Below are positions 12,942 to 24,414 of a stretch of 33,995 nt of DNA, one piece after another. This DNA is from a virus. The notes below the pieces were generated by a model. That model searched no databases and was not told the origin of the DNA. It worked only from the letters and a program-made list of their open reading frames with translations. Each line of letters opens with the position of its first letter. Within the stretch, counting starts at the first letter, position 1. Position numbers and translations under genes: made by a program. Where the stretch lies: positions 1 to 33,995 of the IMG/VR virus record IMGVR_UViG_3300044720_000012; one strand, written 5' to 3'.

Positions 12942-13124
12942 TCACTTGCCCGGATTTCTCGCTATCGGGGCTTGTCCAATCTGTGCGGTGGGCTGGCGAC
13001 GGCGTGGCCCAGTCGGGATAGGGGCCGGGGTGGGGAGGGGAGGGGTACACACCCTGTCACCCCCTTCGATCAGTCTGTAGACGTCGTCGGTCGTGCGGTG
13101 GCTGTGTGCTCCCGCCGCTTGCAT
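12942..13124 (-). CDS. Doubtful small ORF, 60 aa
   Basis: The frame begins MQAAGAHSHRTTDDVYRLIE and continues with a Pro/Arg-rich tail. It ends exactly at the -35 region of the late promoter. GC at third positions is only moderate and no strong ribosome site is present. The stretch also holds the run of G tracts described at 13021-13045 on the opposite strand. It may be non-coding regulatory DNA. Confidence 0.25.
   Translation of the reverse strand: MQAAGAHSHRTTDDVYRLIEGGDRVCTPPLPTPAPIPTGPRRRQPTAQIGQAPIARNPGK
13021..13045 (+). other. G-quadruplex-type motif
   Basis: Five consecutive runs of exactly four G are separated by loops of CC, T, A and A. Short loops of one or two bases are those expected for a very stable parallel quadruplex. 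It lies on the plus strand, that is the template strand for the leftward genes here, about 80-105 bases upstream of the late promoter. Confidence 0.6.
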
Positions 13125-15520: not shown

Positions 15521-16231
15521 TCACCAGTTCAGTTGGCCCTGGGGGATCGACGGCGACCCATGGCCTTCGCTCACAATCTCAACGAATGGCCACTGACAGG
15601 CTCTCTCGGTCGCTTCCTCGGGTGAGTCCGAGATACAAGCGCCGGCCCGTACTCGCTCCAAGTCCTTTGGCGTGTCCACTGTCAGCCGTTGGCTGATGTT
15701 GACAATCCGCCATGATGAGGTTTCACGCGGTCGGTGGATGTCGAGCCAGCTCGTGACGTGCTCGCGGTCGGGATGCTTCCTGCTCAGTGCCTCGTGGCCC
15801 CATTGCAACACGTCCGAGCGCACCACTTCGACATCGAGTCCGTTCGGGTATGAGCGGATCAGGGTGTTCGTGGTGTAGTCCGCGTTCTCGCGTAGGTGTA
15901 CCTCCACGAACTGCCTGACCATCTCGGGTTGGGTCAGTGGGCAGTCCGCGGTGATCCTGACTACGTGATCGGCTTTCACCGCGTCGATGGCCTTCACGTA
16001 GCGGGCGAGCACGTCGTCCTCTGGCCCCTTGACCACATAGGCTCCGCAGTCCCAGTCCACGACTGCTTGAGCGATCTCCTCGTCGGGTGTCGCTACGCAG
16101 ATGGGCAGGTCAGCCGCTTGGAGGTTGTCGATCAGGTACTTGAGCATCGGCATGCCGTTGAGGTCCGCTAGCACCTTTCGCGGGAACCGCTCGGAGTTCA
16201 GCCTCGCCTGGACGATGACCCAGACGCTCAC
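15521..16231 (-). CDS. SpsF/NeuA-type sugar cytidylyltransferase
   Basis: The product is 236 residues; the GTG overlaps the NeuB-like TGA. The family signature is clear: VQARLNSERFPRKVL at residues 7-21 (nucleotide-binding loop), ITADCPLT at 93-100, YPNGLDVEV at 128-136 and DREHVTSW at 155-162. Enzymes of this family activate nonulosonic or related acids with CTP to CMP-sugars in the cytoplasm. Translation is coupled to the NeuB-like gene, so the two steps (condensation then CMP activation) are probably made together. The exact sugar cannot be read from sequence. Confidence 0.85.
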   Translation of the reverse strand: MSVWVIVQARLNSERFPRKVLADLNGMPMLKYLIDNLQAADLPICVATPDEEIAQAVVDWDCGAYVVKGPEDDVLARYVKAIDAVKADHVVRITADCPLTQPEMVRQFVEVHLRENADYTTNTLIRSYPNGLDVEVVRSDVLQWGHEALSRKHPDREHVTSWLDIHRPRETSSWRIVNISQRLTVDTPKDLERVRAGACISDSPEEATERACQWPFVEIVSEGHGSPSIPQGQLNW

Positions 16232-17007
16232 TTGATTGTCCGTCCACGCGCCGCCCAACACTCATCGTTGGCCGGCGTCTTTCGGCCTGAGCCCAGTGCC
16301 GCTTTGGCGTCACGGATGCCTCTGACCATCTCGTACAGCTCGTCGGGCTCCAGTGCGTAGGAGTGATCTGGTCCTGTTTGTGATCTGTCCAGCGTGAAGT
16401 GCTTCTCGATGACCGAAGCTCCGATGGTGGCCGCTGCGATAGGCACCGCGATGCCCTCTGTGTGGTCGCTGAGGCCAACGTGGTAGCCGAATGCCTGTCG
16501 CATGGTGCTCATCGCTCTCAGGTTCATCTGGGCCGGTTTGGCGGGATAGGTGCTCACGCAGTGCAGCAGGACTATCTCGATGCCTCGGTCGGTCTCGTCC
16601 AGTACCCGTATGGCGTGGTCCACGTCGGCCAGGGTGGACATTCCGGTCGAGAGGTAGATCTTCTTTCTCTTCTTGGCGACGTGTCTCAGCAGTTCGTCGT
16701 CCACCAACTCCGGGGAGGCGATCTTGAAGGCGTCCACGCCGCATTTGTCCAAGTAGTCCACCGCCTCTGTGGAGAACGGCGTGCAGAGGAAGTCGATGCC
16801 CAGTTCCCAGGAGTTCTCGATCAACGCCGGCACCCATTCGGTGGGCAGCGCGTGGTCCCCGGCTCCGTCGTAGAAATCCGGCGCGAACAGTTGGAACTTC
16901 ACGCAATCGGTCCCGGCCTCCTTCGCCACCCGTTGCATCTCCTTGGCCGTGTCCAGGTCTCTCTGGAAGTTCGACCCGGCTTCTGCGATGAGATAGGGCT
17001 GGGGCAC
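16228..17007 (-). CDS. NeuB/PseI-family nonulosonate synthase, lacking SAF domain
   Basis: The 259-residue product has the NeuB TIM-barrel motifs: IAEAGSN (7-13), CVKFQLF (35-41), CTPFSTEAVDYL (75-86), FKIASPE (94-100), LSTGMST (119-125), LLHCVSTYPA (147-156), GLSDHTEG (178-185) and EKHFTLDR (201-208). The family condenses phosphoenolpyruvate with a six-carbon amino sugar to give a nine-carbon acid such as sialic, legionaminic or pseudaminic acid. Usual length is about 330-350 because of a C-terminal antifreeze-like (SAF) domain; here the chain ends just where SAF would start. The GTG start overlaps the previous TAG. Confidence 0.88.
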   Translation of the reverse strand: MPQPYLIAEAGSNFQRDLDTAKEMQRVAKEAGTDCVKFQLFAPDFYDGAGDHALPTEWVPALIENSWELGIDFLCTPFSTEAVDYLDKCGVDAFKIASPELVDDELLRHVAKKRKKIYLSTGMSTLADVDHAIRVLDETDRGIEIVLLHCVSTYPAKPAQMNLRAMSTMRQAFGYHVGLSDHTEGIAVPIAAATIGASVIEKHFTLDRSQTGPDHSYALEPDELYEMVRGIRDAKAALGSGRKTPANDECWAARGRTIK

Positions 17008-17204: not shown

Positions 17205-17332
17205 CGACGGTGAACTGTGCGAGCTTTGCCTGCGATCTTGATATTTCCGTAGCCACCTGTCCGCTTGGACCCCATCCATAGCCAGCAGCCCGTAGCCTCG
17301 TCCCGGACAACCTTGTTCCACAGTCGGATCAT
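17201..17332 (-). pseudogene. Truncated HNH-endonuclease N-terminus, 43 aa
   Basis: The ATG overlaps the methyltransferase TGA. The product begins MIRLWNKVVRDEATGCWLWM and continues GSKRTGGYGNIKIAGKARTV. It aligns with the N-terminal part of the HNH protein at 21662-22165 (FFAKV...GCWEW...GYGRFKWQG...AHR) but stops after VHRR, before the catalytic HNH region. No continuation is found in the other frames. It is read as a decayed remnant of an HNH gene that once lay in the sugar operon; it may still be translated. Confidence 0.55.
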
Positions 17333-17815
17333 CGCTTCTCCGCCTCGCAAATAAGCCATCCGACCTCCACCGAGCGGTTGCGGTAGGTCTTGGACACTTC
17401 CTCAACACTGACGTTGCAGAACCCCATCAGAACCAGTGCCGATTCCAACTCATCAGCCTCCGCTTGGACGTAGGTGCCGAGGCCGGGGAAGATGGCTTGA
17501 AGGTCAGCAGTGGAATCCGACGAGAAATGCTGGCTGAAAAAGTGCCCTCCGGGCTGGAGAACTCGTAGGCATTCCTCCAGTCCTCGGTGATGGTCCACCC
17601 ATGAGGTGTGCTGGAGACACTGGACATCTGCGACGGCTCTGACTCCACCCGCTCGTAGAGGGAGTCGGCGGCAGTCTCCGACAAACGTGACAGCCTGTGG
17701 AGCGACCAAATTGTCCAATGCGCTAGGCGATAGGTCGCATCCGAGAGCAAGTCGCGACGGGGGAACAGCTCGGAGGTTCGCCCCTGATCCGCAGCCGATC
17801 TCAAGAAGGGGGCCG

Positions 17816-19323
<1,508 letters not shown>

Positions 19324-19327
<4 letters not shown>

Positions 19328-19554
19328 TTGGTCCTTTCCTGCTTCATCGGGATTCGCCGTACATGGCTCGGAGGGGCGAAGAACGTCCGTGTCCCCCGCT
19401 CCCGCAGGTCGATGGTCTGTTCCTCGTCCCAGAGACCTCTCATGATCCATCCGGCCACCAGTCCGATGCCCAGGGTGATGGTGGCGGGCAGGAGCACGAG
19501 GATGAGCATGTGGTGATTGAACCACAGAGGAAATCCTGTTACAACTGCTTCCAT
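19324..19554 (-). CDS. Small membrane protein, 76 aa
   Basis: With the ATG at 19554 the product has one hydrophobic segment at residues 16-38 (MLILVLLPATITLGIGLVAG) and a basic cytoplasmic tail ending MKQERTK. An ATG at residue 16 is an alternative start; neither has a clear ribosome site. The 19554 start overlaps the start codon of the divergent RHH gene through the shared palindrome CCATGG. It heads the leftward sugar operon. Function is unknown. Confidence 0.5.
19517..19545 (+). promoter_or_regulatory. Rightward promoter of the early operon (leaderless)
   Basis: TTGAAC (19517-19522) and TACAAC (19540-19545) are separated by 17 bases, a good sigma70-type spacing. The -10 ends seven bases before the ATG at 19553, and no ribosome site precedes that ATG at the usual distance, so transcription probably starts at or next to the start codon and gives a leaderless mRNA, as is common in Actinobacteria. 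Confidence 0.55.
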
Positions 19555-19690
19555 GGAAACACGGGCGATGACCTTCCGGGTTCCCCTGGACCTCTACGAG
19601 CAGGCCAAGCAGCTCTCCGAGGAAGCCGACCGCTCGATGGGGGCCACGCTCAGGCTCGCCCTTCGCAAGTACCTGGAGAACGGCAAGTGA
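19553..19690 (+). CDS. Ribbon-helix-helix regulator, 45 aa
   Basis: The product begins METRAMTFRVPLDLYEQAKQ, then LSEEADRSMGATLRLALRKY. The RHH plan is clear: a strand (MTFRVP), helix one (DLYEQAKQLSEEAD) and helix two (SMGATLRLALRKYLEN). It lies first in the rightward operon, right at the divergent junction with the sugar operon, and is a good candidate for the switch between the two. A second ATG at residue 6 is possible. Confidence 0.7.
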   Translation: METRAMTFRVPLDLYEQAKQLSEEADRSMGATLRLALRKYLENGK

Positions 19691-19863
19691 ACGGCCCCTC
19701 CAAGTCCAACGATCCCGACCTGTGGAACGGGGAGAAGGCCGCGCCGACGTCCCAGCGAGTTCGGAATCTGGAGCACGTCAAGAACCTCCGAGAAGTGCTA
19801 CGCGGACAACGGCAGTCCAATCCGACAGACCCCTGGGCCGGGTGGGAACCCGGACAGGCTTGA
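19687..19863 (+). CDS. Small hydrophilic protein, 58 aa
   Basis: The GTG at 19687 overlaps the TGA of the RHH gene. The sequence is disordered at both ends (MNGPSKSNDPDLWNGEKAAP; NPTDPWAGWEPGQA), with one basic helix between (RVRNLEHVKNLREVLRGQRQ). It lies between the regulator and the replication-type protein and may be an adaptor to one of them. No family is recognised. Confidence 0.6.
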   Translation: MNGPSKSNDPDLWNGEKAAPTSQRVRNLEHVKNLREVLRGQRQSNPTDPWAGWEPGQA

Positions 19864-19872
19864 GAGCGGCTG

Positions 19873-20364
19873 GTGAGCGTGCACGTCCTGTCATGGGTGT
19901 TCCAACACTCCGAGGCCGAGGCGAGCGAGAGGCTGGTGCTTCTCGTGCTGGCAAATTTTGCCGACGACAAGGGCCTGTCGTGGCCGGGCATCCCTCGCAT
20001 CGCTCGTGAGGCTCGACTATCCGAGCGCCAAGTCCAACGGTGCCTCAGAAATCTTGAGAAGGCCGGATCCATCGTGACCCACGTCAACGGGGCACCGGAC
20101 AACCGTCAACCAGACAACCGCAGGACCAATGCCTACCGCATTGTCCACAGGGGTGACACTAGCGACACCTCAGAGCCTTTAGGGGTGACACCCACGACGT
20201 TTAGGGGTGACATGCGAGGGGGGTCAGGGGTGACACCCACGTCACCCAAACCGTCATTGAACCGTCATGAACCGCGCCGACTCCACCCGGATGCTCAGTC
20301 CGCCCTGGATGCAGACCTAGCTTTTTTGGATTCTCAACTACAGAAAGAGGCGGGTTGGGAGTGA
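19873..20364 (+). CDS. Helix-turn-helix replication-initiator-type protein
   Basis: From the GTG at 19873 the product is 163 residues. Residues 1-70 form a winged-helix domain of the type used by phage replication proteins (HTH_36-like): ASERLVLLVLANFADDKGLS, WPGIPRIAREARLSERQVQR, CLRNLEKAGSI. The middle is a linker encoded by four iteron-like repeats at 20150-20235, and the end is a helix (SALDADLAFLDSQLQKEAGW). Lambda O and similar initiators bind iterons within their own genes; this gene has the same plan. The stop overlaps the PseB-like GTG. Confidence 0.7.
   Translation: MSVHVLSWVFQHSEAEASERLVLLVLANFADDKGLSWPGIPRIAREARLSERQVQRCLRNLEKAGSIVTHVNGAPDNRQPDNRRTNAYRIVHRGDTSDTSEPLGVTPTTFRGDMRGGSGVTPTSPKPSLNRHEPRRLHPDAQSALDADLAFLDSQLQKEAGWE
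20150..20235 (+). repeat. Iteron array, candidate replication origin
   Basis: Four direct copies of AGGGGTGACA occur, the 9-base core starting at 20150, 20182, 20204 and 20227 (spacings 32, 22 and 23 bases). Two copies extend to AGGGGTGACACCCACG. A pair of CCGTCAT repeats follows at 20251 and 20262, and then a short AT-rich run with six consecutive T near 20321-20340 in otherwise GC-rich DNA. The array lies within the helix-turn-helix gene. Confidence 0.6.
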
Positions 20365-21209
20365 AGATTCTTCTCACCGGAGGAACCGGATCATTCGGCA
20401 AGGCACTCATCCGAGCGGTGGGTCAACAGCACACAATCCGCGTGTACTCGCGCGGTGAACTACTCCAAGCGGACGCCTCCGAAGAATTCACCGACGAGGC
20501 GGGCTACGACTGCCACTTCATGATCGGTGATGTGCGGGACCGGGACCGACTGATCAGAGCGGCTCGCGGAGTTGACGTGATCATCCACGCCGCGGCCATG
20601 AAGCGCATCGAAAAGTGCGAGTACGACCCCTGGGAAGCGGTCCAGACCAACGTGGGGGGAGCCCAGAACGTCATCGACGCCGCCTACGCCTGGGACGTGC
20701 CCCGAGTGGTGGCACTCAGTACCGACAAGGCGGTCCACCCCGTGAACCTCTATGGGGCCACCAAGCTGTGCGCTGAGAAGATCATCCGCAACGCCGGCCA
20801 CACCGTGGTCCGTTACGGCAACGTCATGGGCAGCCGGGGCTCGGTGGTCCATGCGTTCAGGAGCCAGGCACCGCACGGCTTCCTCAAGATCACCGACCCC
20901 CGCATGACCCGCTTCTGCATGACGATGGACGAGGCTGTCCAAGCCGTGTGGCACACCGTGACCTCAGGAGGCACCTACGAGGGCACCACCGCCCCTGGGC
21001 TCGTCGTCCCCCGGCTTCCCTCCATGCGGGTCGCAGAACTCACCACAGCCATGTATCCGGGCCTTCCTGTGAAGGTCACCGGCATCCGCCAGGGCGAGAA
21101 GCTCCACGAGATGTTGCTGACGCCCGAGGAGGGCGGTCCCTACACCTCCGACAACAACGACCGCTGGTACACCGTGGACGAACTGCGGGAGCTGGTGGCC
21201 AATGTCTGA
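20361..21209 (+). CDS. PseB-like UDP-GlcNAc 4,6-dehydratase
   Basis: The GTG at 20361 overlaps the previous TGA, with GAGG upstream, giving 282 residues. It is an extended SDR enzyme: LLTGGTGSFGKAL (4-16) binds NADP, DVRDRDRL at 57-64, HAAAMKRIEKCEYDPWEA at 76-93, LSTDKAVHPVNLYGATKL at 119-136 with the Asp122-Lys123 and Tyr131-x3-Lys135 catalytic groups, RYGNVMGSRGSVV at 151-163, and PRMTRF. These are the marks of the inverting dehydratases (PseB/FlaA1) that make a 4-keto-6-deoxy sugar, the first step to pseudaminic acid. It is shorter than usual (about 330). It sits within the replication operon, apart from the other sugar genes. Confidence 0.85.
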   Translation: MKILLTGGTGSFGKALIRAVGQQHTIRVYSRGELLQADASEEFTDEAGYDCHFMIGDVRDRDRLIRAARGVDVIIHAAAMKRIEKCEYDPWEAVQTNVGGAQNVIDAAYAWDVPRVVALSTDKAVHPVNLYGATKLCAEKIIRNAGHTVVRYGNVMGSRGSVVHAFRSQAPHGFLKITDPRMTRFCMTMDEAVQAVWHTVTSGGTYEGTTAPGLVVPRLPSMRVAELTTAMYPGLPVKVTGIRQGEKLHEMLLTPEEGGPYTSDNNDRWYTVDELRELVANV

Positions 21210-21640: not shown

Positions 21641-21661
21641 CAGTTCAGATTGGAGGCGGCG

Positions 21662-22165
21662 ATGACCGAGGAAGTCTCACTCGCTGAGAAGTTGGCTTGG
21701 GAGTACGACCCTGCTCGGTTGAGTGACGCTGACCTCGACCGCTTCTTCGCCAAGGTCCAGATCAAACCCGGATGCTGGGAGTGGTTGGCGTATCGTGCTG
21801 ACGGCTACGGCCGATTCAAGTGGCAGGGCTGGCAACGGCAGGCCCACCGCATCTCCTACATGTTTTACAAGGGTGCGATCCCGCCGAACGTGGAGATGGA
21901 TCATCTCTGCCGGAACCGCGGGTGCGTCAACCCTAACCATCTGGAGGTTGTGACCCAGGCCGAGAACTGGCGACGGGGCCAGACCCCATCCCGGCTGAAC
22001 CAACTCAAGACCCATTGCCCGCAGGGCCACCCCTACGACGAGGCCAATACCTACTACCCGCCTATCCGACCGAACAGACCGAAGCCGTGCCGGATGTGCA
22101 AGTTCTGTATGCGGGCCAGATTCCGTGCCTACTACGACGCCAATCTCAGGCGGCCTCGCCAATGA
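21662..22165 (+). CDS. HNH endonuclease
   Basis: The ATG at 21662 has GGAGG five bases upstream. The 167-residue product has the HNH core AHRISYMFYKGAIPPNVEMD, HLCRNRGCVNPNHLEVVTQA, with the catalytic Asp-His pair (MDHLC) and Asn-Pro-Asn-His (NPNHLE). A second half has extra Cys pairs (HCPQGHPYD and CRMCKFC) that probably bind zinc. Free-standing HNH genes of this kind in phages usually act as homing endonucleases. Its first residues (EEVSLAEKLAWEY) resemble those of the next gene (DYTLAEKLEWPF). The stop overlaps that gene's ATG. Confidence 0.85.
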   Translation: MTEEVSLAEKLAWEYDPARLSDADLDRFFAKVQIKPGCWEWLAYRADGYGRFKWQGWQRQAHRISYMFYKGAIPPNVEMDHLCRNRGCVNPNHLEVVTQAENWRRGQTPSRLNQLKTHCPQGHPYDEANTYYPPIRPNRPKPCRMCKFCMRARFRAYYDANLRRPRQ

Positions 22166-22599
22166 GCGAAAAGGACTACACGCTTGCCGAGAAATTGGAA
22201 TGGCCGTTCCCGCCCGAGATGGTGGAACTGGTCGACAAGGGCTACGGCAAGTTCTCCTACGTGCCGGTCTCCGAAGTGATCGTGAGACTGAACAAGGTCC
22301 TCGGAGTGGGGAACTGGGGCATGACGGTGGACTCCCTGGAACCCCTCGACGGGTGGCTCATCTGCCGTGTGACGCTTCGCGTGTTCTTCAAGGGTGAATG
22401 GGTGCTCTACGGGGCCGCTGGCGGCCACAAGATCGAGAAGGACACGGGTGACACCGCCAAGTCCGCGGTGAGCGACGCCTTCAAGAAGGCGGCCAGCCTC
22501 CTCGGGATCGGGCTTTACTTGAGTCGCACCCCCGAAGCCCTGGCCTACGAGCGGGAACGCAAGCAACGATTGGAGAGCCATGACAACGAATCCGAGTGA
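22162..22599 (+). CDS. Rad52-like single-strand annealing protein
   Basis: The 145-residue product has the Rad52/Rad22 core: YVPVSEVIVRLNKVLGVGNW near 33-52 and DTGDTAKSAVSDAFKKAASL then LGIGLYLS near 95-122. These proteins form rings on single-stranded DNA and anneal complementary strands during phage recombination and replication. The ATG overlaps the HNH stop (ATGA). It is on the short side and consists of the annealing domain only. A resolvase-like gene lies in the opposite operon at 27105-27539. Confidence 0.8.
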   Translation: MSEKDYTLAEKLEWPFPPEMVELVDKGYGKFSYVPVSEVIVRLNKVLGVGNWGMTVDSLEPLDGWLICRVTLRVFFKGEWVLYGAAGGHKIEKDTGDTAKSAVSDAFKKAASLLGIGLYLSRTPEALAYERERKQRLESHDNESE

Positions 22600-23187: not shown

Positions 23188-23257
23188 GCGCACCACCAAG
23201 GTCACCTGGGTGTTCACCGACTGCGACGAGGTATTGGCCATTCTGAGGGGCACATGA
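23156..23257 (+). CDS. Small protein, 33 aa
   Basis: The GTG at 23156 overlaps the TGA at 23159, and its own TGA overlaps the aminotransferase ATG. The sequence begins MSHLIWHFIPERTTKVTWVF and ends LAILRGT. Exact coupling on both sides supports translation. Function is unknown; it may chiefly couple translation to the aminotransferase. Confidence 0.5.
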   Translation: MSHLIWHFIPERTTKVTWVFTDCDEVLAILRGT

Positions 23258-24414
23258 GGTCCAATCAGTTCGACCTCAGGCAACGGGCCGAGAAGGTGAT
23301 CCCCCTCGGCTGCAACACCCTGTCCAAGAGCCCGAACCAGTGGGCCTACAACGCCCCGACCTATCTGGTGGCCGGCTACGGCCCCAAGGTCCAAGACGCT
23401 GACGGCAAGTGGTGGCTGGACGCCACGATGGGCCTGGGGGCGGTGATCCTGGGCCACGGTGAGTTGATCATCGGACGGGCGATGGCGTTCCCGCTCTCCA
23501 CCGTCGGTTCACCCTTGGAGGTCGACGTGGCCGAGCTGCTCTGCGAGATGGGGGGCCACGACAAGGTCCGACTCGGCAAGACGGGATCCGACGCGGTGGC
23601 GGCTGCGGTCCGCTGTGCCCGTATCGCCACCGGCAAGAACTCGGCGCTGGTCGACGACGGCTACCACGGCTGGCACGACTGGTTCGCAGCCACCACCGAG
23701 CGCAACAGAGGGATTGGGCCACAGGCCACGGTGAAGTTCGGTGAGAACCGCCAAGGCTTGGACGAATCTGGCTGGCTCAAGCCCGAAAAGTGGGGCCATC
23801 TGGCGGCGGTCGTGGTTGAGCCTGATCGTCACTCCGAACAGGACTTGAAGGTCATGCGGGGCCTGTGCGACTACTCCGACATCTACCTGATCTTCGACGA
23901 GGTGATCACCGGATTCCGCTATCCCCACCCCTGGCCGGTCAAGCCCGACCTCACCTGCTACGGAAAGACACTGGCCAACGGCATGGCCGTGTCCGCGGTA
24001 TGCGGCTCAGATGAGGCCATGCGGCCCTTCGAGCACGGATTCTGGTCCACCACCCACGCCAACGAGAATGTCAGCCTGGCAGCCGCACAGGCCACTCTCA
24101 GGCGATTGCAGGACGGCACCCTGTCCAAGGAGATCAACGCCAAGGGCGAGCACCTGATGGAGTGCTTGGCGGACCTGGGATACAACCATCACGGCTACGG
24201 AGCACGCATCGTCGTCGACTTCGACTCCACCGAGCACAAGACCGCAACCCTCGAATGCCTCGCGGACCGAGGAATCCTGTGCAACGGGAACATCTTCCTC
24301 TCCGCGGCTCATTCAGACGTCGACGTAGCGGAGATCGCGGCGGCATTCAGTCATGCAACGGCATGGGGACCGCCACGGGGCCGGCTCGTCCAAGCCGTGT
24401 ACCGGTCCGCATGA
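23254..24414 (+). CDS. Class III (GSA-aminomutase-like) aminotransferase
   Basis: The 386-residue PLP enzyme resembles HemL-type glutamate-1-semialdehyde aminomutases: IPLGCNTLSK near 16-25, LDATMGLGAVILGHG at 55-69, GYHGWHDWF at 136-144, IFDEVITGFR at 213-222 with PLP-contacting Asp215, and CYGKTLANG at 235-243 with the likely Schiff-base Lys238. HemL-like enzymes of this branch also occur in bacterial surface-sugar clusters with NeuB and SpsF-type genes (recalled). It probably aminates the keto sugar made by the PseB-like enzyme instead of a DegT-type PseC. Tetrapyrrole synthesis is less likely given the context. It uses an ATG overlapping the previous stop. Confidence 0.8.
   Translation: MRSNQFDLRQRAEKVIPLGCNTLSKSPNQWAYNAPTYLVAGYGPKVQDADGKWWLDATMGLGAVILGHGELIIGRAMAFPLSTVGSPLEVDVAELLCEMGGHDKVRLGKTGSDAVAAAVRCARIATGKNSALVDDGYHGWHDWFAATTERNRGIGPQATVKFGENRQGLDESGWLKPEKWGHLAAVVVEPDRHSEQDLKVMRGLCDYSDIYLIFDEVITGFRYPHPWPVKPDLTCYGKTLANGMAVSAVCGSDEAMRPFEHGFWSTTHANENVSLAAAQATLRRLQDGTLSKEINAKGEHLMECLADLGYNHHGYGARIVVDFDSTEHKTATLECLADRGILCNGNIFLSAAHSDVDVAEIAAAFSHATAWGPPRGRLVQAVYRSA

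Follow-up and report, generated by a model that had tools for sequence, protein, structure and literature searches.

A candidate replication origin embedded in an HTH_36-type phage initiator gene and flanked by a recurrent GAACCRTC tandem element

Does a phage gene that carries four short repeats in its middle hold the origin at which its own product would initiate replication, and if so, where would that origin open? How initiators open origins is still called an open question (PMC5043065). We analyzed a stretch of 33,995 bases, hereafter the window, from the IMG/VR virus record IMGVR_UViG_3300044720_000012. It is without end repeats and encodes a tailed phage, with a P22-like portal, a large terminase, and a major head protein, all of them minus-strand genes. 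The phage collection contained zero close DNA relatives of the window, and a direct search of viral contigs with the whole initiator protein as the query gave zero matches. Our literature search, whose scope left most subscription journals outside, found no paper on the origins of this initiator family, and the exact iteron strings and GAACCGTC matched unrelated text only, among the matches listed.

Iterons in the linker of a winged-helix protein

The original prediction placed a four-copy repeat cluster in the linker of a helix-turn-helix protein, and its exact copies, positions, and spacing were all confirmed. The repeat, AGGGGTGACA, occurs at intervals of 32, 22, and 23 bp (Table 1) with no further exact copy in the window, where ~0.13 copies are expected by chance on both strands. 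All four copies fall in linker codons of the initiator open reading frame (ORF), in two different codon frames. When this ORF was recoded synonymously with the codon usage of the window, none of the 20,000 trials contained any 10-mer four times. Each of iterons 1 and 4 is the left half of a dyad with imperfect symmetry, GGGGTGACA-N4-TGTCACCCC, whereas the middle two iterons show only 2/9 right-half matches each (by eye), so that two of the four look dyadic. Some relatives have an evident full dyad, for example Bifidobacterium phage PMBT6 and the loci L126 and L090. A minus-strand copy of GGGGTGACA at 13055-13063, also pointed out in the original prediction, is present and has a C-rich stretch of that strand beside it, but it is at chance level; because 0.75 copies of this 9-mer are expected by chance, it carries no weight, and a second origin site at 13055 was rejected.

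Table 1. Coordinates of the initiator gene and of the putative origin elements within it (right-half matches of the iterons scored by eye)
Feature	Position	Strand	Remarks
Initiator gene	19873..20364	+	163 aa from a GTG start; a winged helix at the N terminus is joined by a disordered linker to a C-terminal helix
Predicted recognition helix codons	20023..20064	+	Residues 51-64, including Arg52 and Arg56; AlphaFold2 model
Iteron 1	20149..20171	+	AGGGGTGACA plus degenerate right half (dyad, 6/9)
Iteron 2	20181..20203	+	AGGGGTGACA, half-site
Iteron 3	20203..20225	+	AGGGGTGACA, half-site
Iteron 4	20226..20248	+	AGGGGTGACA-CCCA-CGTCACCCA (dyad, right half 7/9)
Tandem element	20248..20276	+	AAACCGTCATT-GAACCGTCAT-GAACCGCG; directly after iteron 4; putative site of strand opening or loading
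AT-rich segment with T-tract	20310..20349	+	Contains codons of the C-terminal helix; may unwind instead of, or in addition to, the tandem element

The protein matches HTH_36 (PF13730; E 1.9e-10), the sole Pfam profile passing its cut-off, and its best PHROG match is PHROG 1032, replication initiation protein (E 2.7e-20, residues 1-102). PHROG 8540 and 391 ("replication initiation O-like") also match; these profiles cover the N-terminal part and describe the protein only, not the DNA elements embedded in its gene. An AlphaFold2 model (pLDDT 83.8) gave a confident winged helix at residues 1-90, a low-confidence linker at about residues 91-138, and a C-terminal helix at residues 139-159, and the predicted disordered linker coincides exactly with the stretch that encodes the iterons. 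In Foldseek comparisons with the PDB, the fold resembled winged helices in general, including those of plasmid RepA (4pql, 4pt7, and 5kbj), and among viral models it resembled phage HTH proteins and one replication protein O. The best sequence-profile match among solved structures was the DnaD-type initiation protein 2vn2. The C-terminal part is short, and no recognizable DnaG-binding C-terminal domain was found in it.

To gauge the breadth of the layout, viral contigs were searched for GGGGTGACA occurring three times at gaps of 8-35 bp. At least 120 contigs carried the triple repeat, compared with 4 for a reversed control word. With a family HMM trained on the window protein together with six annotated homologs from phages, we found the triple repeat inside an HMM-matching gene in 105 of the 120 contigs listed and in 0 of the 4 control contigs, typically at codon 90-110. 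The embedded-iteron layout recurs, then, in at least 105 viral contigs. A scan of genome contigs with the triple word returned mostly unrelated chromosomal tandem repeats and was excluded from this estimate. A repeat-blind search, conducted with the DNA-binding domain alone and the linker omitted, yielded 80 close and 80 diverse loci; its seeds were closer subsets of the repeat-selected set, the full alignment being too diverse as a query. Two or more copies of GGGGTGACA followed the domain in 79 of the 80 close loci and in 11 of the 80 diverse ones, and most of the other diverse loci had a different array at that position, for example CCCCGAAC, CCCCGCAG...CTGC, CGGACACCCATGTCCG, or GGCGAC. 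The array is therefore a fixture of the gene, with a changeable sequence. For the counts below, the relatives were grouped at 60% identity into 76 families, which are not independent and in which those with GGTGACA iterons are over-represented, as the first scan selected for them. Arrays of GGGGTGACA were also seen in initiator-like genes of a Desulfobacteraceae contig (L206) and a Shewanella contig (L192) whose proteins are apparently nearer to the lambda-O type, and the same iteron core may thus be used beyond this initiator family.

A GAACCRTC tandem element beside the iterons

The paired CCGTCAT repeats of the original prediction are real, but they turned out to belong to a GAACCRTC tandem with an 11-12-bp period that directly follows iteron 4. 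Its units in the window are AAACCGTC (20248-20255), GAACCGTC (20259-20266), and a degraded GAACCGCG (20269-20276). Of the 76 families, 34 have [AG]AACC[AG]TC no more than 400 nt from the domain, and 17 have two or more copies there, whereas codon shuffles gave 2.5 families with the element and 0.04 with two or more copies, and the complementary strand gave 0. The element is read in all three codon frames (35, 14, and 9 times), 23 of the 29 distances between neighboring copies are 11 or 12 bp, and the copies usually begin exactly where the last iteron dyad ends. Its frequency is independent of the iteron type (19 of 44 GGTGACA families versus 15 of 32 others). A strict copy is missing from about half of the families, and the looser variants that we noticed by eye do not enter these counts. 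The element occurs in named phages and in plasmids from both Actinomycetota and Pseudomonadota, among them Gordonia phage DatBoi, Bordetella phage PHB09, and a Thermobispora plasmid.

The element may be a strand-opening or helicase-loading site. Averaged over the 34 families that have it, the AT content rises from ~0.40 to 0.55 exactly at the element and is 0.50-0.56 from +0 to +44, with no second peak beyond the element. We tentatively propose that origins with HTH_36 initiators form a large class built of two parts: fast-switching iterons that would track the recognition helix, and a constant, strand-specific tandem of GAACCRTC 11-12-mers that would act as a sequence-specific opening or helicase-loading element, recognized by something common to these phages. 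Such a two-part class is a possibility that we put well short of even odds.

A rival account has a serious claim, if still somewhat under an even chance: the element would be a second initiator site, a host-factor site, or an RNA-level signal, and opening would occur at the T-tract. The AT-rich T-tract segment of the original prediction is indeed the most AT-rich part of the region in the window, with 30-base windows at 60-63% AT versus ~33-47% nearby. It lies 34-73 bp past the element (the T-tract itself 45 bp further on), and the element is only mildly AT-rich here (47%), besides missing as a strict copy from the families noted above. On the other hand, the conserved neighbor of the iterons is the GAACCRTC element rather than this segment, and it is on the element that the family-averaged AT peak falls, with none following. 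The second-site version is further weakened by the constancy of the element while the iterons change, which is ill-suited to recognition by the same helix.

Origin reading and DNA-level constraint

We consider it probable, at about 0.85, that the 163-aa protein is the replication initiator of this phage, that its own gene holds the origin, and that opening or loading takes place at the adjacent element. The lambda-O type layout anticipated by the original prediction, in which the initiator gene carries its own origin, is supported by the fixed repeat codons described below and by the at least 105 viral contigs that share it; binding to the repeats and use of the origin are inferred. An embedded origin is the simplest reading, and there are precedents: in lambda O, an origin within the initiator gene has been measured (PMC7466680), and in pSK41 RepA, the binding boxes lie centrally within rep, the linker being encoded by the origin (PMC5703833). 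The cumulative GC skew does reach its minimum at ~21-22 kb, but we do not count this as evidence because gene direction also changes near 19.5 kb.

The iterons could instead be operators at which the HTH protein represses or otherwise controls its own gene or a promoter downstream, with replication starting elsewhere. Winged-helix repressors are the commonest Foldseek matches of the protein in the PDB, and autoregulation through sites within a gene is possible. We nevertheless regard this as improbable: a crude test found no promoter-like site in 19400-20500, the profile matches are to replication initiation and not to repressors, and multiple phased in-gene iterons with a conserved tandem neighbor suit an origin better, with lambda O and pSK41 RepA as measured precedents (PMC7466680, PMC5703833).

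Comparison of relatives shows that the constraint on the iterons acts at the DNA level. Among 67 distinct close relatives, codon identity at same-amino-acid pairs was 0.48 in the HTH part versus ~0.92-1.0 in the iteron codons for G-V-T and R-G-D; that is, synonymous change has reached saturation in the HTH part while the repeat codons are near-fixed. Across the 76 families, GGGGTGACA was placed in codon frame 0 63 times, in frame 1 69 times, and never in frame 2, where it would give an in-frame TGA, and both frames were used in 30 of the 37 families with several copies. The original prediction had named unconserved repeats beside a conserved linker as the outcome speaking against it; the relatives present the opposite, with fixed repeat codons that switch frames. 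That the repeats are a by-product of protein-level selection on a repetitive linker, in which G-V-T and G-D-T/M motifs (GVTP/GDT) do recur, was rejected as extremely unlikely, since the two frames encode different peptides, iteron codons are near-fixed where the rest is saturated, synonymous recoding never reproduced the array, and the linker is predicted to be disordered. About 25 codons ahead of the iterons, at Q-Y-K codons, CAA-TAC is near-invariant in close relatives (loci L249-L328; 0.94-0.97) while neighboring synonymous sites vary, and CAATAC may represent a small second DNA-level constraint in the gene.

Under the origin reading, winged-helix dimers would bind the linker-encoded iterons through the recognition helix (Arg52/Arg56). 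They would sit on one face of the DNA, given that the iterons are mostly spaced by about 21-23 or 32-35 bp (21, 22, and 23 bp being the commonest in the 76 families and 32-35 bp forming a second group). Once assembled, the complex would open the strands at the neighboring GAACCRTC tandem, where a helicase would be loaded. The helicase is probably that of the host, because we found no gene of the DnaB or DnaC type in the window: the DnaB_C and IstB profiles gave zero matches in this possibly incomplete record, and the gene after the initiator encodes a nucleotide-sugar epimerase, not a helicase or loader. In some named relatives, DatBoi and Gingerbug, a helicase or helicase-loader gene does adjoin the initiator.

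Iteron type, known systems, and neighboring genes

All 44 families with GGTGACA iterons have both Arg52 and Arg56, compared with 22 and 17, respectively, of the 32 other families. Of all columns of the domain, that of residue 56 covaries best with the iteron type (p 2e-7, shared descent uncorrected), and at least 15 changes of iteron type fall on the protein tree. A tree-aware pair test for R56 had five supported contrasts only, of which 3.9 agreed and 0 opposed, a number so small that 0.05 is unreachable. The pattern is suggestive of residue 56 tracking the iteron type across independent contrasts.

As proposed for the window gene, lambda O has an in-gene origin, together with an N-terminal DNA-binding part; its four dyad iterons lie mid-gene ~20-24 bp apart, with AT-rich DNA on the right (NC_001416; PMC7466680, PMC5043065). 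It differs in belonging to a separate sequence family (no significant score with the family HMM), in its iterons, in being without the GAACCRTC element, and in being followed by P rather than by a sugar epimerase. The RepA_N plasmid initiators of pSK41 and pTZ2162 likewise have a winged-helix N-terminal domain and boxes central in rep (PMC5703833), whereas RepA_N (PF06970) is absent from the Pfam matches of the window protein, and the likeness in fold is that of winged helices generally. In phages P22 and L, gene 18 is reported to have its own distinct repeats in each, taken as the origin, and it has already been reported that the repeats differ between lambda, P22, and L (PMC8022706). Those repeats are other than the ones here and were inferred from three phages, in contrast to the many families compared here, across which the iterons differ while a neighboring element stays.

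If the element is an opening or loading site, these genes would provide hundreds of natural origins with interchangeable iterons, in which opening could be tested apart from initiator binding. Each gene would also pair a DNA-binding domain with its own target, giving a data set for the DNA-recognition code of winged helices, and the layout could serve as a simple origin marker for many metagenomic phages.

Several neighboring genes look like part of a phage-borne nonulosonic (sialic-acid-like) sugar pathway: a NeuB-family synthase (16228-17007, -), a methyltransferase (17329-17922, -), the polysaccharide-type epimerase/dehydratase (20355-21209, +), and a class-III aminotransferase (23254-24414, +). 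A GTACCC hexanucleotide array of ~38 copies (90% matches) at 18789-19015 (-) lies inside a minus-strand ORF (18471-19202) and would encode a Gly-Tyr-rich repeat. Also near the initiator gene, an HNH endonuclease-like ORF (21650-22165, +) overlaps an ORF for a Rad52/22-family annealing protein (22015-22599, +).
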